DNA of 36,296 nucleotides from Chloroflexota bacterium (GCA_014360805.1 JACIWU010000024.1:1-36296); one strand, 5' to 3'; numbered from the stretch's first letter, positions 3,673-19,604 are shown. A program made the numbers and translations. The notes: a model not told the origin generated them from the letters alone.

Positions 3673-6600
3673 TTACTGAATCCGCAGCAACTTGATGTCG
3701 GGGTCAGCGCCGATACCGCGGATCGGCCCCAGCCACAGGGACCCGTCCTGAGCCTTCACGTCCAGCGCCACGGCCTGCGCCGTCAGCAACTGCACGTTGC
3801 CGAAGCGGAGCATGGTCGGCCCGGACTTCACGCCCTTGAACGTGATTCGCGCCAGCACGGCATTGCCCTGGAGCGCCGGAGTCGGATCCAGCAAGGTGGC
3901 GGCGAAGCGGATCACGCCGGCGGACGTGTCCACGGAGTTCAGCGCCACAAACGCGCCGCTCCCCGCGAACACCTCGCCCACGCCGATCTGCACGCCATCC
4001 TTGTTCACATCCGCGTCCAGCACGCTCAGCGCCGCCGGGTCGTAGCGAATCTCCAACTCGCCCGCGTACAGGTCGGCCACGCTGCTCGCGACGACCTCAA
4101 CCGTCGTCTCGGAACCTGCGGGCACGATGCGGAACGAAGGCGAGAAGCCCAGTTTGGCCTGGCCGCGTGCAGCCGCCGAGACAGCCGCCACCGTGCCCCA
4201 GTCGGTCGGGCCGGTGCGGTTGTAGTTCGCGCCCACCAGCACCAGGTCAATCAGGTTGCAGGTGCCATCGCCGTTGATGTCGGCACGAGAGTCCGCCGGC
4301 GGCGTGGAGCCGTACATCGCACCCACGATGACCAGGTCCACGATGTTGATGGTGCCATCGTTGTTGGCGTCGCCGCCCAGCAGCATCGTGCTGCCAATGT
4401 CCACCGACCCAGAGGCCGGCACGACGACGCCGGTCTTGCGGGCCGACAGGTAGCCCGGCTTGCTCGCAGTTACGGTGTAGGTCCCAGCAGGCACGCCGGC
4501 GATGGTGAAGGTGCCGCCGCTGCCGGTGCTAACCGGAGGCAGTGCGCCCGCCGCCACGGACGTGCCGCTATGATCCGTCCGCGACTGCAGCGACACCTGG
4601 CCGCTGATGGAGCCGGTCGTGATCACCACTTCCAGCGACCCGCCCTGCGTCGTGCTGCACATCTGCTCGCCGTAGCGGTCCACGAGCATGCCCAGGGTGA
4701 ACGCCACGTTCGCGGTGCCGGTGGCGAGACCCATGAAGTGGATCGTCGCTACCACGCCGCTGCCGCTCACCGGAGGCGCCGGGTTCTGGAGCGTGAAGGT
4801 GTAGCGTATCACGCCGGTCCCATTGTCGGCCGAGTTGTTCTGCGTGTACCCGCTGCCGGCGGGCAGGAACGGCCCAGGCGTGATCTGGATGCCGGGCGTC
4901 GCCGGGTCGTCGTCCACCACCTGCACGCGGGTGTAGTCAAACGACAGTTGCAGGTCCACCCCGTACAGGTTGGAGACGTTCTCCACCCGGATGTCCACAC
5001 CCACCGTCTGGCCCACGCCCACCGTCTGCGTTGTCGGCGACAGGTGGATCAGCGCGCAGGTCGTTACCAGGATGTAATCGATCTTGGTCTCGGCGTCCAC
5101 GCCGCACGGCCCGGAGACCGTCAGCGTTACGGTGTAGACGCCCGGGGTGTTGTACACGTGCGACGGGTTCTGCTCACTAGACGTTCCACCGTCGCCGAAG
5201 TCCCACGACCAGGATGTGATGTTGCCCACCGACAGGTCCGTGAAGTTCACGGTCAGCGGAGCCTGCCCTTGCGTGGGCGTGGCGCTGAAGTCGGCCTGCG
5301 GCGGCTCGCACGCGGTGGTCGTGTTGATGTAGATGTCCTTCGGGTCCGTCGGATCGTACCAGAACATCACCCTGTACTCCGGCATCTGCGCCGCCAGCGG
5401 AGTCGGCAGGTACTGCGTGCACGCAAAGTTCTCACGCAGGTTGTACCACCACCAGTCGGTGGTCATCAGGTACTTCTCGCCGGCGGGGAACAGAAGTTCG
5501 GTGTACTTGTCGGGCGAAGTCCGATACTCGGTGAGCATCCAGAGTTGCGGAATCTGCACGCCGTCAAACAGGTAGATTTCCTTCAGTTCGCCGTAGAACT
5601 GCGGCTCGCGGGCCTCGTCCACGATGGAGATGCGCAGAGGCGGCCGCTGCGTGAGCACGTTGCCGATGCAGTTCGGATCTGCCCACAGCATGTACGCGGG
5701 GTTGCCCAGCGTCAACTCCGTGCGGTTGGGCGGGATGATCTGCGGGTTCGGGTTGTTCCAGGTCTCCGGCATGCTGAGGATATCTTCCCGCACGGTGTGC
5801 AGGTAGTTGAACGGCGGCATCACCGAAATCACGTTGCCGATTCCGTAGCCCTGCAGGATTTGGCTGTCCTCGTAGTTCGTGAAGTCCTCGGGCTTCGGAA
5901 CAGGCGTGCGGATGGTGATGTACTTGAACTCAAACCGATCCTCGTTCGGATACTGGTAGGGGTTGGGCACGGTCATCAGAGCCACCACGTTGTACTCGTG
6001 CCCGTCCACGAAGAACCGCTTGAGGTACCACGGGTCGCCCGCCACCAGGTCGTGCCCACCCGCGCCATCGTCAATGGCCGAGCGACTCGCGCCCAGCGCG
6101 CGACCGATGATGAGGTTGACGGTCTCGGTGGCCGAGTTGATCTGGTCCACGTACACGAACCACGCGCCGTTGAGGCTACCCAGGTTCGTGCCGCCGGCCA
6201 GGATGCGCCGATAGCCGTTGCGGTCCACGATGGCCATGTCGCCGGGCCGCAGCGTTACAGGCGAGCCAGGCACCAGGTCAGGGTGCTTGCTGTTGTTGGC
6301 CTGCATCCCGCCGCCCGTGTACCACAGCGTCAGGTCCGCCGAGGTCGCGGGCACGGCGATGTTCGCCAGGCTCACCATGTGATCCAGCAACTGGGCGCTC
6401 TGGCCGCGCTGCAGATGGACCGCCCTGGCGAAGATGACCAACTCATCGCCGGTCAGCGCAGTACCATCGGTATCCAGGTAGTCAATCGCGCCGTTGCCGT
6501 TGAAGTCCGCACCGATGCTGGTAACCTGTTGCAGCGTGTACTCCGAGTGGATCGTAACCGCGTCCTCCAGCCCGTCAAAGTCGGCGTCAAAGGTAGTCAG

Positions 6601-13952: not shown

Positions 13953-14744
13953 CTACCCGAACAGGATTCCCAGAACAGCCAGGAACGCCAGGATCGCCAT
14001 GCTGCCCGCCAGAATCCCGTACTGAGAAGCCGAGAGCCGTCCCGTCGGGAGCGTGCGAACCTCCCCGTCGTACCCCCGCGCCAGCATGGCCTGATACACC
14101 CGTTCGCTGCGCTCGTAGCCGCGGACGAACAGATTGCCCACCATGCCGCCGGTAACGCGGGCGCGCCAGGCCAGCGTGCCGCCGCTTTTCGGCCCGATGT
14201 CGGCGCTGCGGGCATCCCGCGCAATCCGCAGCCGATTCACCTCGTGCACGAACAGGAACATGTACCGCCACATCAGCCCAAACACCGCCACCAGCAGCCG
14301 CGGAACCCGCAACGCCCGCATGGCCGCAAGAAGCTCGGTGAAGCGGGTCGTCGCCGTCAGCAGGATGGCGAACTGCACCGACAGGTAGGACTTGACCAGC
14401 ACCGACAGGAAACGTTCCAGCCCGGGCACGCTCGCGTCCAGCGCCAGCGGCCCCAGGCGCAGGGAGCCCAGCGGTGCGCCGGGCGTGGAAAAGACCAGCG
14501 GCAGCGCCGCCAGCGCGAACGGCGCCGCGATCAGGCCCCGCGTGAGCGTGAACCCGACGCCCAACCGCGCCGCAACCGCCAGGGCGAGGATCGCCGCCAG
14601 CAGCAGGACATACGATGGCCACGCGCCCAAAGGCAGCGCCGCCGTAACGAGGATGCTCGCTACGGCGACGACAACCTTCACGCGCGGGTCGGCCCCATGC
14701 ACCAGGCTCGCCCGAGGACGATAGGGATCCAGAATATCCGGCAT
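13953..14744 (-). CDS. cbiQ: Cobalt/nickel ECF transporter transmembrane (T) component
   Basis: A 263-residue membrane protein. It opens with DPYRPRASLVHGADPRVKV, typical of EcfT/CbiQ, followed by about five to six hydrophobic helices. Near the C-terminus are the two Ala-Arg-Gly-type coupling motifs (LFVRGYERSERVYQAMLARG, then YDGEVR) that dock on the ATPases. A final helix ends in LAVLGILFG. ATG at 14744 has GGAG about 5 nt upstream. It lies 18 nt from cbiM and 9 nt from cbiO, one transcript with shared ribosome-binding overlap at the cbiO end. Confidence 0.9.
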   Translation of the reverse strand: MPDILDPYRPRASLVHGADPRVKVVVAVASILVTAALPLGAWPSYVLLLAAILALAVAARLGVGFTLTRGLIAAPFALAALPLVFSTPGAPLGSLRLGPLALDASVPGLERFLSVLVKSYLSVQFAILLTATTRFTELLAAMRALRVPRLLVAVFGLMWRYMFLFVHEVNRLRIARDARSADIGPKSGGTLAWRARVTGGMVGNLFVRGYERSERVYQAMLARGYDGEVRTLPTGRLSASQYGILAGSMAILAFLAVLGILFG

Positions 14745-14762
14745 CTGCTCTCCAAACTGCGC

Positions 14763-15779
14763 TTACTGCTGCATGGCCCGATGACGCACTCCCTGCGCCA
14801 CCAGGTAGGCCGCCGCGGCAACCACCAGCGCGCCCAACACGCCCGCAACGATGGTAGCCACGGCCTCATTCGCGATGCCCGGGAAGACGTAGTCCGGGAT
14901 GATGTTGTACAACGGCTCGCGGGCCGCCTCCAAAAAGCCCTGCTGCTCGGCCACCCACTCCAGCCCATCGGGGTACGCCGACGCCAGCGGCGACAGCACC
15001 GCCAGCACCATGGCCAGCGCCACGCCGCCGATCCAAAGCGCCTTCTGTCCTGCGGTGGCCTTTGCCGCCGGCGCCACCAGGTCAGGGCGCGCCGCCAGCA
15101 CGAAGACCAGCGCGCCGGCTGTGATCAGCCCCTCGCCGATCCCGATGAGGGCGTGAATCCCGCCCATGGCCGGCACCGACACGTTCGCCGGCGACGTGCC
15201 CGAAGCCGCCAACTGCAACGCGCACATCAGCGCCGCGATGACGATGGACAGCCACGCCGCCACAAACCCGCTCACCGGCAAGGCCCAGCGCCGATTGCCG
15301 AAGGCCCGAAGGAGCAACTGGTACGCGCCGTATCCTACCAGCACCCCCACAATCGCCATGTTGAACAGGTTCGCGCCCAGCACCAGGATGCCCCCATCTT
15401 GGAACAGCAGCGCCTGGATGCTCACCACCGATGTCATGACGACCATCGCGGCCCACGGCCCCAACAGCGCCGCCGCCAACGTCGCGCCCAGGAGATGCCC
15501 CGAAGTACCGCCCGTTACGGTGAAATTCAGCATCTGGCCGGCAAAAATCACCGCCGCCAAGACCGCCAGCAGCGGAACCTTCCGCTCGTCCAACTCACGG
15601 CTCACCCGCCGCAACGCGTACCCGATCACAATGATGGACACGACCCAGAACAGAATGGACACGGGAACCGAGAGGAAGCCGTCGGGGATGTGCATCGGCT
15701 GGGAACCACCGGAAGGCCCGTGGCCCCCCGCAATGCGCCCGAGGGCCAATACAGAGGAAACCACCGCGTTGCCTGACAT
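14763..15779 (-). CDS. cbiM: Nickel/cobalt substrate-binding component, CbiM fused to CbiN-like PDGLE domain
   Basis: A 338-residue membrane protein. The CbiM/NikM metal-binding start MHIPDGF appears at residue 29, followed by about seven hydrophobic segments. A C-terminal domain with AYPDGLEW (about residue 270) and a last helix correspond to the PDGLE/CbiN-like part, so M and N are fused. In known NikM/CbiM the metal is coordinated by the free N-terminal Met-His, so the 28-residue extension is odd: it is not an obvious signal peptide (GRIAGGHGPSGGSQP). ATG 15779 is chosen for AAGGAG 8 nt upstream; an alternative start at 15695 would place MH at the N-terminus but has a poorer ribosome site. 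Confidence 0.85.
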   Translation of the reverse strand: MSGNAVVSSVLALGRIAGGHGPSGGSQPMHIPDGFLSVPVSILFWVVSIIVIGYALRRVSRELDERKVPLLAVLAAVIFAGQMLNFTVTGGTSGHLLGATLAAALLGPWAAMVVMTSVVSIQALLFQDGGILVLGANLFNMAIVGVLVGYGAYQLLLRAFGNRRWALPVSGFVAAWLSIVIAALMCALQLAASGTSPANVSVPAMGGIHALIGIGEGLITAGALVFVLAARPDLVAPAAKATAGQKALWIGGVALAMVLAVLSPLASAYPDGLEWVAEQQGFLEAAREPLYNIIPDYVFPGIANEAVATIVAGVLGALVVAAAAYLVAQGVRHRAMQQ

Positions 15780-15831
15780 CGTCTCATCTCCTTGCTGGAA
15801 TATTGCGACCGCGCGATGCTTTGCGACAGGT

Positions 15832-16287
15832 CTACGCCTCGTCCGTATGCGCCTCCCCATGGGCGCGCGCCTGGCAGGCAGGGCAGATGCCGAAGAAGGC
15901 GAAATGCTCGGTGCGTGGCAGATACCCCAACGTCTCGCGCAAATACTGCCGCACCGGCTCCAGGAGCGAATCGGGGAGCGTCAGCCGCTCGCCGCACTCC
16001 AGGCAAACCAGGTGGTGGTGCGGATGCTCGGCGATGTACTCGTATTCATGGCAGTCGCCGCCCAGGTCGGTCTCGGCCACCAGCCCCGCAGCCTTGAGCC
16101 ACTGCAGGTTGCGGTACACGGTGGGCACCGAAAGCGTGGGATAGGTGGCGGCCAGTTCGTCCAGAATCTGCTGGATCGTCATGTGGCATCCCGCGCCCTT
16201 GATGACCTCCAGGATGGCGAGGCGCTGGGGCGTGAGGCGATACCCCTGACTCTGCAACTGGTGCGCGACCTGCATGTGGTGAGACAT
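15832..16287 (-). CDS. Fur-family metal-responsive repressor
   Basis: A 151-residue Fur/Zur/Nur-type regulator. The winged helix is at about 10-75 (GYRLTPQRLAILEVI, SVPTVYRNLQWLKAAG). The dimerisation/metal part contains HPHHHLVCLECG and FFGICPACQ, giving two CxxC pairs (Cys95/98 and 135/138) for structural zinc. ATG 16287 is chosen because AGGAG lies 7 nt upstream; the ORF's first ATG (16329) lies upstream of the predicted transcript start. It heads the cbiMQO operon 52 nt upstream, so nickel/cobalt (Nur-like) or zinc sensing is plausible. The sequence does not settle which metal. Confidence 0.85.
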   Translation of the reverse strand: MSHHMQVAHQLQSQGYRLTPQRLAILEVIKGAGCHMTIQQILDELAATYPTLSVPTVYRNLQWLKAAGLVAETDLGGDCHEYEYIAEHPHHHLVCLECGERLTLPDSLLEPVRQYLRETLGYLPRTEHFAFFGICPACQARAHGEAHTDEA

Positions 16288-16300
16288 GGTTTGCTCCTGT

Positions 16301-16349
16301 AAGCATTTGCATCTGGAAGCATTATACACAGCGCACGAGGCCCTGTCAA
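16301..16349 (-). promoter_or_regulatory. Promoter of the fur-cbiMQO operon with AAGCATT direct repeat
   Basis: Leftward TTGACA (16349-16344), 17 nt, TATAAT (16326-16321), start near 16314. A 7-bp direct repeat AAGCATT (16301-16307 and 16317-16323) brackets the start site. It is a candidate binding site for the regulator encoded by the first gene, though it does not match a textbook Fur box. Confidence 0.65.
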
Positions 16350-16350
16350 A

Positions 16351-16660
16351 TTCTCCCCTCGCCCCGCCGCGCGGGGAGAGAAGGGGGAACGGGGGATGTG
16401 AGGGGTAACCCCTGCGCGCGCCAGGGTTTCACCGCCGAGGACGCCGGAGGCGCGGAGGGTCACGGATTGGCCCGCGTGTCCGCCGGTAGGGGCGACCCGC
16501 GGGTCGCCCCTACGTGGTGCGTCCACGCCCCCCGCCCGTGCGCACGCCACCCCCTTCTCGCCCCGCCCCGCGGCAACAGCACACGTAGGGCGGCTTTCCA
16601 TAGCCGCCCGCCCGTCCCCTCGCCCCGCCGCGCGGGGAGAGGGCTAGGGTGAGGGGTGCA
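16351..16660. repeat. Dispersed GC palindromes in the gap before the nifS-like gene
   Basis: This gene-free stretch holds two CCCCTCGCCCCGC...GGGGAGAG...GTGAGGGGT-type elements (16352-16403 and 16612-16656). It also has a perfect 28-bp palindrome at 16486-16513 (GTAGGGGCGACCCG and its complement) and a CGTAGGGCGGCT/AGCCGCC hairpin near 16585-16608. A related copy lies at 19514-19558. No credible ORF is present. Confidence 0.75.
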
Positions 16661-16860: not shown

Positions 16861-18033
16861 ATGCAGAACGAAATCATCTACATGGATAATGCAGCGACGA
16901 CACGGGTGGACCCGGCCGTCGTGGAAGCCATGTTGCCCTTCTTCACCGAAAAGTACGCGGTGGCATCGTCGCAGTTCAGCCACTCGCCCGGCATAGAGGT
17001 GCGCGAGGCGCTGGATGCCGCCCGCGCTACCATCGCCCAGGCCCTGGGCGCGGCCAAGCCCGAAGAGGTCATCTTCACCTCGGGCGAGACCGAGTCCAAC
17101 AACTGGGCGCTCAAGGGCATGGCGCGCGCCTTCCGTGGCAAGAAGAACCACCTCATCATCTCCAAGATTGAGTCGCGGTCCGTGCTGGATACCGCGCAAG
17201 CGCTTGAAAAAGAGGGCGTGCGCGTTACCTATCTGGACGTGGACGGCGAGGGGTTCGTGAACCTGGAGCAGTTGCGCGCCAGCATCACCGACGACACGTT
17301 CCTGGTGTCCATCCAGCACGCCAACGAAGAGGTGGGCACCATCCAGGACATTGACGCCATTGCCGCCATCGTCAAGGAGCGGGGCGTGGCGTTCCACACC
17401 GACGCCTCGCAGACCTTCACCAAGGTCCCGCTGAACCTCGCCGAGACGCCCGCCGACCTGGTAACCATCACGGCGCACCTGATTCACGGGCCCAAGGGCA
17501 TCGGCGCGCTGTACGTCCGCGAGGGCACGCCCATCGCCAAGTGGATGCACGGCGGGTTCATGGAGTTCAACTTGCGCGGCGGCGTGGAGAACGTGCCGGG
17601 CGCCGTGGGCTTCGCCAAGGCCGTGGAGATGACCAGCGCCACCCAGGTGGAATACATCTCCAGCCTGCGCGACCGCCTGATTGACGGCATCATGGCGCGC
17701 ATCCCCAAGGCCGAACTCAACGGGCCGCGCCACCGCCGCCTCCCGGGCAACGTCAACATCTCGTTCCACTACGCCGAGGGCGAATCCACCCTCCTGCACC
17801 TGGATATGATGGGCATCGCGGTGGTAACCGGTTCGGCCTGCTTCAGCCGCTCGCTGGAGCCGAGTTACGTGCTGATGGCCATGGGCAAGACCCACGAACT
17901 GGCCCACGGCTCCATCCGCTACTCGCTGAGCCGCTACAACACCGCCGAGGAAGTGGACCGCGTCATTGACGCCACGGCGGAGGTCATAGAGACTTTGCGT
18001 CGCATCAGCCCACTGGGGAAAGATGAGAAATAG
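16861..18033 (+). CDS. NifS/IscS-like protein lacking the PLP lysine
   Basis: A 390-residue protein with full-length cysteine desulfurase architecture. It starts IYMDNAATT and retains SGETESNN (PLP phosphate loop), Asp181 and Gln184 (DASQ), His206, Arg239, and Cys327 in the mobile loop (TGSACFSRSLEPSYVL). However, the PLP-bonding lysine of SxHK is Leu207 (TAHLIHGPKG, codon CTG). The PLP-stacking histidine of EHKxVLDT is Ser105, the NNE asparagine is Glu156, and the GT of the RxGTEN loop is Val242. It is therefore unlikely to make the PLP aldimine or desulfurate cysteine. Archaeoglobus fulgidus IscS is a family precedent lacking this lysine. Cys327 could still carry persulfide and the fold could still dock IscU, encoded next. 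TusA and DsrE neighbours suggest an alternative sulfur source (inference). No ATG alternative changes this reading. Confidence 0.85.
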   Translation: MQNEIIYMDNAATTRVDPAVVEAMLPFFTEKYAVASSQFSHSPGIEVREALDAARATIAQALGAAKPEEVIFTSGETESNNWALKGMARAFRGKKNHLIISKIESRSVLDTAQALEKEGVRVTYLDVDGEGFVNLEQLRASITDDTFLVSIQHANEEVGTIQDIDAIAAIVKERGVAFHTDASQTFTKVPLNLAETPADLVTITAHLIHGPKGIGALYVREGTPIAKWMHGGFMEFNLRGGVENVPGAVGFAKAVEMTSATQVEYISSLRDRLIDGIMARIPKAELNGPRHRRLPGNVNISFHYAEGESTLLHLDMMGIAVVTGSACFSRSLEPSYVLMAMGKTHELAHGSIRYSLSRYNTAEEVDRVIDATAEVIETLRRISPLGKDEK

Positions 18034-18044
18034 ACAACAGCCAT

Positions 18045-18123
18045 TAGCCTCTAGCCCCTAGCCTCTAGCCCTTCGCTAAAGGCTAACGGCCAAAGGCTAA
18101 AGGCTATAGGCTAAAGGCCAAAC
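18045..18123. repeat. Opposed heptanucleotide repeats between nifS-like and iscU genes
   Basis: Four units of TAGCCTC-type (18045-18072) face seven units of GCTAAAG-type (18075-18123) across TCG. The two arrays are imperfect inverse complements, so the intergenic RNA can fold into a long hairpin ending just before the iscU ribosome site (AAGGAGG at 18126-18132). A repeat-number change would change spacing or folding upstream of iscU. Confidence 0.75.
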
Positions 18124-18137
18124 GCAAGGAGGAACTT

Positions 18138-18785
18138 ATGCCAATCCCATACAGCGAAAAAGTCATTGAGCATTTCAAGAACCCGCGCAACGTGGGCCGC
18201 ATGGAGGACTACGACGCGAAGGCCACCGAGGGCAGCCCCGCCTGCGGGGACATGGTAACCCTGTACCTGAAGGTGGACGAGGAGACCAAGACCATCAAGG
18301 ACATCAAGTTTGAGTCCTACGGGTGCGCGTCCAACATCGCCACCGGCTCCATCATCACCGAACTGGCCAAGGGCAAGACGCTGGACGAGGCGCGCAAAAT
18401 CAACTGGAAGGCCGCTGCCGAGGAACTGGGCGGGCTTCCTGCGGTCAAGGTGCACTGTTCGGTGCTGGCCGTGGACACCCTGCGCGCCGCCATCCGCAAC
18501 TACGAGGAGAAGCACGGCCTGGTGGAAGACCGCGAGCCTACAACCGTGGAGATCGTAGAGAAGCGGCTCCGCCACGTGATGAACCCCCTCACCGGCCTGG
18601 ACATCGTCAAGACCCACGTGGTCAAGAAGGTGGATGTGGGCAACGGCGTAGTTACCGTCTGGGTGGACCTGACCCGCGATCACCAGTTCGCCAACAACAT
18701 TGAGCAGGAGATCCGCGAGCGCCTGGAGCCCCTGTGGGACGTGGCCGAGGTGCACGTGATCTTCAACGACGACGAGCAAGAGTAG
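18138..18785 (+). CDS. iscU: IscU-type scaffold fused to a MIP18 (DUF59) domain
   Basis: A 215-residue protein. Residues 1-125 are an IscU/NifU N-terminal scaffold. Its three cluster cysteines Cys36 (GSPACGD, with Asp38), Cys63 (YGCASNIA) and Cys107 (VHCSVLA) are all present. Residues about 133-210 form a MIP18/PaaD-like domain (VEKRLRHVMNPLTGLDIV, then DLTRDHQFANNIEQEI) of the kind used in Fe-S targeting and SUF-associated assembly. The scaffold assembles [2Fe-2S]/[4Fe-4S] clusters and the fused domain may deliver them (inference). ATG 18138 has AAGGAGG 5 nt upstream. It follows the lysine-less NifS-like gene and precedes tusA by 29 nt. Confidence 0.85.
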   Translation: MPIPYSEKVIEHFKNPRNVGRMEDYDAKATEGSPACGDMVTLYLKVDEETKTIKDIKFESYGCASNIATGSIITELAKGKTLDEARKINWKAAAEELGGLPAVKVHCSVLAVDTLRAAIRNYEEKHGLVEDREPTTVEIVEKRLRHVMNPLTGLDIVKTHVVKKVDVGNGVVTVWVDLTRDHQFANNIEQEIRERLEPLWDVAEVHVIFNDDEQE

Positions 18786-18814
18786 TCGCGGCGTTGGCCG
18801 CATTGGAGGTGCGT

Positions 18815-19039
18815 ATGGCGCACATTGTTGTGGATGTAAAGGGCGAGACCTGCCCGATTCCGCTTATTGAGACGCGCAAGGCCCTGCGCAAAGCCGCCGA
18901 AGGGGATGTGGTGGAAGTCGTCGGCACCCACCAGGCCTCCAAGCGCGAGATCCCCATGGCGGTCAAGAACCTGGGCCTGCAACTGCTGGACATCACCGAC
19001 GCGGATGACGGGACCTGGCGAATCCGCATCCGCAAGTAG
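18815..19039 (+). CDS. tusA: TusA-family sulfur carrier
   Basis: A 74-residue protein of the TusA/SirA/YeeD fold. The CPxP signature ETCPIPLIETRKAL places the persulfide cysteine at Cys13. The rest follows the two-layer pattern (EGDVVEVVGTH, then ending DGTWRIRIRK). TusA proteins relay sulfane sulfur between sulfurtransferases, DsrE proteins and acceptors. ATG 18815 has GGAGG 5 nt upstream; the longer ORF start lies in the iscU coding region. It sits between the iscU fusion and the dsrE-like gene and is very likely on the same transcript. Confidence 0.9.
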   Translation: MAHIVVDVKGETCPIPLIETRKALRKAAEGDVVEVVGTHQASKREIPMAVKNLGLQLLDITDADDGTWRIRIRK

Positions 19040-19057
19040 GCCGAAAGGAGGCCAACC

Positions 19058-19477
19058 ATGGCCGACAAGGCAACCATCATCGTCCACAGTGGCGATTACG
19101 ATAAGATTTACAGCGCGCTGATTATCGGGACGGGGGCGCTTTCCATGGGGATGGAAGCGTCCCTGTATTTTACCTTCTGGGGACTCCAACGCCTGAAGAA
19201 GGACGGGCTGGAGGGAGGCCCGCTGTCCAAGATGCACATGCTCGGCCTGGGCAAGTGGATGATCCGCCGCCGCATGCAGAAGGCCAACGTGGCCAAACTG
19301 GAGAAACTCATGCGGGAGTTCCGCGACCTGGGCGGCAAGGTCATTGCCTGCGAGATGACCATGGAGATCATGGGCGTGGGCAAGGAGGACCTGCGCGAGG
19401 ACTGGATTGACGAGTACGGCGCGGTGGGGGCCTACGTCCAGGAGGCGAAGGACTCCAAGATCACGCTGTTCATCTAG
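19058..19477 (+). CDS. DsrE2-like sulfur-transfer protein
   Basis: A 139-residue DsrE/DsrF-type protein. The N-terminal strand-helix ATIIVHSGDYDKIYSALIIG is followed by MGMEASLYFTFWGLQRL, and later KVIACEMTMEIMGV carries the single cysteine (Cys98) at the usual active position. In sulfur-metabolising organisms such proteins exchange persulfide with TusA. AAAGGAGG precedes ATG 19058. It is last in the four-gene sulfur unit, 18 nt after tusA. Function as a sulfur donor/acceptor is family-based. Confidence 0.85.
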   Translation: MADKATIIVHSGDYDKIYSALIIGTGALSMGMEASLYFTFWGLQRLKKDGLEGGPLSKMHMLGLGKWMIRRRMQKANVAKLEKLMREFRDLGGKVIACEMTMEIMGVGKEDLREDWIDEYGAVGAYVQEAKDSKITLFI

Positions 19478-19604
19478 CGGACAGCGATCAGCCGTCGGCC
19501 GCGGGGCGTTCGCGTCCCCTCGCCCCGCACCGCGGGGAGAGGGTTAGGGTGAGGGGTCCAATCCCCTCGCCCCGCACCGCGCGCCCCTCTTACATTATGT
19601 CAAC
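19478..19604. repeat. Gap after the sulfur operon with one dispersed GC palindrome
   Basis: A CCCCTCGCCCCGC...GGGGAGAG...GTGAGGGGT element lies at 19514-19558, followed by a truncated second start of the same element to about 19585. This may also act as the 3' end of the upstream operon. No gene. Confidence 0.6.

Follow-up and report, generated by a model that had tools for sequence, protein, structure and literature searches.

How can an Fe-S assembly operon supply sulfur when its NifS/IscS homologue has lost the lysine that defines a cysteine desulfurase? Textbook Fe-S assembly on IscU begins with a PLP-dependent cysteine desulfurase. The window analyzed here, meaning the whole stretch of 36,296 nt from a Chloroflexota bacterium whose lineage is labelled Anaerolineae (GCA_014360805.1 JACIWU010000024.1:1-36296), carries such an operon at positions 16861-19477. 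The original prediction had proposed that sulfur reaches IscU here by a route that does not begin with cysteine.

The operon and its four proteins

The four genes all lie on the plus strand and encode, in order, a group-I NifS/IscS homologue of 390 aa, hereafter IscS* (16861-18033), an IscU-MIP18 fusion of 215 aa (18138-18785), a TusA-like sulfur carrier with a CPxP motif (18815-19039, its start corrected to ATG 18815) and a DsrE2-like sulfur carrier with a single conserved Cys98 (19058-19477). Consecutive genes are separated by 104, 29 and 18 bases, and a GGAGG-type ribosome-binding sequence precedes each of iscU-mip18, tusA and dsrE2. The gap between iscS* and iscU (18034-18137) is filled by TAGCC/GGCTA-rich, hairpin-like repeat sequence. 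A dispersed repeat with 72 matches in its own genome is found upstream of the operon (16340-16660), and a fragment of the same repeat just 3′ of dsrE2 (19513-19560). A divergent cluster on the minus strand (15832-16329 and 13953-15860) encodes a FUR-family regulator, a CbiM-type uptake protein and a membrane protein that is possibly CbiQ; this regulator is a candidate for control of the Fe-S operon.

Pairwise alignment of IscS* with E. coli K-12 IscS (45% identity) placed Ser105, Glu156, Leu207, Val242 and Cys327 opposite His104, Asn155, Lys206, Thr243 and Cys328, respectively. The Schiff-base lysine of PLP-dependent group-I cysteine desulfurases is replaced by Leu207 (codon CTG, 17479-17481), and the PLP-stacking His104 and PLP-contacting Asn155 are also absent, with Ser105 (TCG) and Glu156 (GAA) in the window and Asp and Gln in the clade described below; codon 242 is GTG. 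Asp181, Gln184, His206 and Arg353 are retained in the window protein, as is the equivalent of the persulfide-carrying Cys328 (codon 327, TGC, 17839-17841), and both the loop cysteine and the substrate-binding arginine, Cys327 and Arg353, are present in all 81 clade members.

IscS* has a class-V aminotransferase fold and is nearest to NifS/IscS, below every curated NCBIfam cut-off (NifS, 471.9 vs 530.75 bits; IscS, 387.3 vs 643.2 bits). Its AlphaFold model (pLDDT 87) superimposes with a TM score of 0.91 on both 1p3w and 4eb5 and of 0.91-0.93 on IscS/NFS1 structures, IscU-bound ones included; the uncertain loops are 33-41, 230-237 and the Cys loop 326-331. Cys327 and the overall fold are thus kept, as originally proposed. 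Judged from its sequence, IscS* is by class not a cysteine desulfurase, as the defining lysine was tested for and is absent, and it probably has neither bound PLP nor desulfurase activity.

Family profiles bore out the predicted partners. The fusion protein matches NifU_N (PF01592, 156.7 bits) with three IscU cysteines at 36, 63 and 107, and MIP18/SufT (DUF59; PF01883, 43.8 bits vs a gathering score of 23.5). The TusA-like protein matches PF01206 at 80.0 bits with its CPxP motif and is below the NCBIfam TusA equivalog cut-off (34.9 vs 78). The DsrE2-like protein, 68-78% identical to homologues beyond the genus, matches only the broader Pfam DrsE_2 (PF13686) and misses the NCBIfam SulfCarrDsrE2 cut-off for DsrE2 of sulfur oxidisers (62.7 vs 210 bits). 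Among the TusA-contact residues of IscS, Arg55 is present in 81/81 clade members and Glu49 in 70/81.

A lysine-less clade and its gene neighborhood

We scanned ~85,000 prokaryotic genomes and found at least 80 loci with 53-97% identity to IscS*. The window and the 80 matches listed make up the clade set (n=81), which spans at least nine phyla of bacteria and archaea. Bacterial hosts among the matches listed are Chloroflexota (including Dehalococcoidia), deltaproteobacterial MAGs, Syntrophales, Nitrospirota, Atribacterota, Bacillota and one actinobacterial MAG; archaeal hosts among them are Methanosarcinaceae, Methanofastidiosum, Methanomassiliicoccaceae, Theionarchaea, Altiarchaeales and Heimdallarchaeota. 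Both other genomes of the window genus encode IscS* at 97% identity and eight genomes from other families of the class encode a homologue at 52-63%, position 207 being always Leu or Thr in these ten genomes.

A lysine at position 207 of homologues had been named beforehand as evidence against the prediction. The residue is Thr in 69, Leu in 12 and Lys in none of the 81 clade members, whereas conventional paralogues (n=57), taken largely from the same genomes and class, have Lys in 56, His105 in 56 and Thr242 in 57. Elsewhere in the site the clade has Asp105 in 78, Gln156 in 77 and His184 in 80 members; Thr242 is lost alongside the replacements H105D, N156Q, Q184H and K207T/L, and Thr77 and Ser204 are usually kept. 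Only the window genus has Ser105 and Glu156, and only the window itself has Gln184; the wider family has Asp105, Gln156 and His184.

In the tree, the lysine-less sequences form one clade on a long stem (SH-aLRT 100), and scattered independent losses of the lysine among these homologues are thereby ruled out. A. fulgidus IscS falls outside the 81-member clade; common descent with it is unsupported by the tree, in which the position of its long branch is unsure. Profile scores are bimodal among 150 genomes of the class, with 26 carriers at ≥543 bits and every other copy at ≤445 bits. Of 61 genomes in the Methanosarcina family, 37 have a copy at ≥663 bits, and 11 of those are without a second match.

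Comparison of the window with its congeners gave dN/dS values of 0.03-0.05 for IscS*, 0.05-0.08 for IscU-MIP18, 0 for TusA and 0.05 for DsrE2. These low values within the genus indicate that the replacements in IscS* are maintained and not drifting, and the value for IscS* together with the fixed replacements rules out pseudogene decay. Sequencing error or a MAG artefact is ruled out by the agreement of two congeners and the 80 loci listed. Codons, alignment, congeners and the 81-member clade all confirm that Leu207, with Ser105, Glu156 and Val242, does not stem from a single sequencing error.

The linkage of the four genes, for which a survey of relatives had been proposed and whose absence would have counted against the prediction, is conserved across bacteria and archaea in the loci listed. 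The IscU-MIP18 fusion was found in 78/80 loci listed, the remaining two being contig ends (78/78 uncut loci), TusA in 75/80 and DsrE2 in 73/80; no other neighbor family exceeds 14/80, and a search for further conserved partner genes around these 80 loci found none. With the window counted, the IscU cysteines C36, C63 and C107 are invariant (79/79), as are the TusA motif cysteine (76/76) and DsrE2 Cys98 (74/74). The commonest order is tusA-dsrE2-iscS*-iscU/mip18, and many Anaerolineae-type genomes have iscS*-iscU/mip18-tusA, with dsrE2 next in some, the window included. In five to seven of the 80 loci listed, some of them cut by contig ends, TusA or DsrE2 is missing from the neighborhood, so some hosts may do without one of the carriers or encode it at another site.

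Control loci encoding conventional IscS paralogues (n=67), with flanks of mostly 1-1.5 kb and some of 3 kb, had IscU in 40/67, the MIP18 fusion in 0/67, TusA in 0/67 and DsrE2 in 1/67. Chance gene order is ruled out by the absence of TusA and the fusion from these loci and by the low counts of other neighbors (≤14/80 listed). The sole control with DsrE2 (L186/L236, genome G025 of the same class) is itself lysine-less: Lys is replaced by Gln (GNQFYGPQG), the His206 equivalent is lost and the Arg353 equivalent is Val. This IscS is encoded by an ORF at 3973-5178 of the reverse complement (minus strand) of contig G025:C46, accompanied by IscU, a zinc ribbon and the DsrE2-family gene. Its lysine was lost independently of the 81-member clade, and because this independent loss also comes with a DsrE2 gene, a functional link between the two is suggested. 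As read from these sequences, the PLP site of the clade is dismantled in a coordinated and conserved way, and sulfur-carrying cysteines persist in four linked proteins.

Known relatives and other Fe-S genes of the hosts

Lysine-less IscS proteins are already known from A. fulgidus and M. acetivorans, but for the conserved four-part TusA-DsrE2-IscS*-IscU/MIP18 module a literature search restricted to open-licence papers found no description. The A. fulgidus protein (PDB 4eb5, 4hvk; D199K variant 4r5f), which had been named as the precedent, shares the fold, the replaced lysine, the Cys loop and the IscU partner. The precedent extends to the missing lysine and not to the rest of the site: in A. 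fulgidus IscS, Asp stands at the lysine position, Asn, Ala and Leu replace His205, Gln183 and Arg356, respectively, and His104 is kept, so that a different set of residues is lost, and IscS* shares neither its clade nor its losses.

The closer published relative is IscS1 of M. acetivorans. IscS1-IscU1 (MA0808-MA0807), with IscS1 devoid of the catalytic lysine, was published as a possibly non-functional paralogue (PMC7585200). The STGSACFS loop of IscS1 is identical to that of the clade, the 24.2 kDa of IscU1 match an IscU-MIP18 fusion in size, and the pair lies in a cluster with four genes called unknown; the accessible text describes neither the linkage to TusA/DsrE2 nor a MIP18 fusion nor the spread beyond methanogens (PMC7585200). 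From the STGSACFS motif and the 24.2 kDa IscU1, we infer that IscS1 belongs to the IscS* clade. The Methanosarcina sp. DH2 locus (L095), a clade member, has TusA, DsrE2 and the IscU-MIP18 fusion.

The E. coli system shares with the module the fold, the Cys loop, the IscU cysteines and the docking of IscU and TusA on IscS. It differs in that IscS is PLP-dependent and donates sulfur to TusA, IscU is unfused, and the operon holds IscR, IscA, HscAB and Fdx. The SMS and MIS systems (PMC12192291) are, like the module, minimal anaerobic Fe-S machines, and SMS takes sulfide without a cysteine desulfurase; however, SMS is SufBC-like and MIS is described with a cysteine desulfurase, whereas the module is IscU-based and has none. 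In the DsrE-TusA trafficking of sulfur oxidisers (PMC4175335), DsrE-family proteins and TusA pass sulfur via cysteines, as proposed here.

Other Fe-S genes of the host genomes, namely those for IscU, SufB/D and class-V cysteine desulfurases, were surveyed by family (profile) searches, to which all absences below refer. Each of the three genomes of the window genus has one group-I IscS and one IscU, both of the module. SufB/D, detected by the same search in 14/14 control genomes, was not found in the window genome (96% complete) or in one congener (98%); the other congener is the same bar one weak SufB/D match. This match lies in a SufC-SufB-like pair (L194, G002:C38) on a 3 kb contig whose sufC start looks chimeric. 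Within the class, strong SufB/D matches (E≤1e-60) occur in 0/26 carriers vs 95/124 other genomes, uncorrected for relatedness. In a Heimdallarchaeota genome (G056), the sole IscU is that of the module and SufB/D was not found, but a SufS-like enzyme is present. In a Methanofastidiosum (G058) and a Dehalococcoidia genome (G046), no class-V cysteine desulfurase was found, the other class-V proteins above threshold being transaminases; each has a SufB-type protein. A conventional IscS is also present in many host genomes. In some genomes, the module is the sole IscU-type assembly set found.

Elsewhere in the window genome, two group-II desulfurases, SufS-like L001 and EF2568-like L002, retain the lysine; enzymes of both types are also found in the congeners, and in the window genome they are not linked to the module. 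All three genomes of the genus (G000, G001 and G002) encode a COX1-family oxidase. The window organism may therefore not be a strict anaerobe, and because of this oxidase, free sulfide is not an obvious donor in the genus.

Possible sulfur routes

Since the lysine is lost and the module is sometimes the sole IscU-type set found, sulfur must reach the clusters in another way, and a route starting elsewhere than IscS* is strongly implied. This much of the predicted non-cysteine route stands. The exclusion of cysteine itself need not carry over to the window genus, where the two lysine-bearing group-II desulfurases encoded outside the module may keep cysteine as the ultimate donor.

We lean, with a little more confidence than doubt, toward a PLP-free ISC variant in which persulfide on DsrE2/TusA, or sulfide, is relayed via Cys327 to IscU. 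IscS* would carry out no cysteine desulfuration; its dimer would dock the partners and relay sulfur. Persulfide sulfur would arrive on DsrE2 Cys98 and TusA and be handed to Cys327, whose flexible loop would convey it to IscU, where clusters would be built; the fused MIP18 domain would aid cluster delivery to target proteins. E. coli IscS offers TusA and IscU separate docking faces around its mobile Cys328 loop, and in the IscS-TusA complex Cys328 comes within ~4 Å of the TusA cysteine (PMC2854127). The flow from DsrE2/TusA through Cys327 to IscU would be the reverse of E. coli TusA traffic, a direction that we infer from the presumed inability of IscS* to make persulfide; the parts assigned to the individual carriers, and to MIP18 in cluster delivery, are likewise putative. 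Anaerobes such as Methanofastidiosum would draw their sulfur primarily from sulfide or another sulfane donor, whereas the window genus may obtain it through a SufS-like or EF2568-like enzyme outside the module. In line with the relay, sulfide can supply IscU in anaerobic E. coli that lacks IscS (PMC13015791).

The conserved Cys loop may, by analogy with A. fulgidus IscS, instead be a mere cluster ligand. IscS* would then be an inert structural partner whose dimer holds IscU, with Cys327 transiently ligating the nascent cluster, sulfide entering IscU directly and TusA/DsrE2 serving other sulfur trafficking. As summarised in PMC7585200, the lysine-less A. fulgidus IscS has no desulfurase activity, and in the IscS-IscU crystal its cysteine was seen to ligate the cluster; the IscS* model resembles 4eb5 and 1p3w alike (TM 0.91). 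However, an inert partner leaves unexplained why TusA and DsrE2, with invariant cysteines, accompany IscS* in >90% of the loci listed and never stand beside a lysine-bearing IscS in our sample, and A. fulgidus IscS is outside the clade and has lost different residues. We regard this alternative as rather unlikely.

We consider it doubtful that desulfuration is split between proteins, such that a lysine-bearing group-II enzyme (L001 or L002) strips sulfur from cysteine and loads TusA/DsrE2, with IscS* as the acceptor platform and cysteine still the donor. TusA is known to accept sulfur from desulfurases, and both types of enzyme occur in the window genome and its congeners with the lysine retained in the window copies, but they are unlinked to the module in the window genome. 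Moreover, G058 and G046 have the module and no class-V cysteine desulfurase that was found, so that this arrangement would not be general unless these genomes are incomplete.

A PLP site without its lysine can in principle work weakly if PLP binds non-covalently. That IscS* binds PLP in this manner, or via another residue, and desulfurates cysteine is nevertheless very improbable: Asp181, His206 and Arg353, whose retention also speaks against the PLP-free ISC variant, and usually Thr77 and Ser204 are kept, but the lysine, the stacking His, the PLP-contacting Asn and Gln and the second-subunit Thr are replaced, mostly by fixed residues, and the lysine-less IscS of A. fulgidus is reportedly inactive (PMC7585200).

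Beyond the relay via Cys327, we tentatively entertain a further-reaching possibility, namely that the module is a separate desulfurase-free Fe-S machine of anaerobic bacteria and archaea, in some lineages the sole IscU/SufB-type machine. The emptied PLP pocket would have been re-used, with the fixed Asp105, Gln156, His184 and Thr207 beside Asp181 and His206 forming a new site that might hold, for instance, iron or the sulfide/polysulfide that charges Cys327.

The module is widespread and has kept every sulfur-carrying cysteine while apparently discarding the enzyme chemistry. Sulfide-dependent Fe-S assembly in M. acetivorans is unaffected by iscSU2 deletion and also by loss of SufBC; the authors state that additional factors are yet to be discovered (PMC10500019; PMC7585200). 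IscS1-IscU1 with TusA and DsrE2 is a genetically testable candidate for this missing sulfide route, and the module is also relevant to Fe-S cluster assembly wherever sulfide is abundant and oxygen absent.
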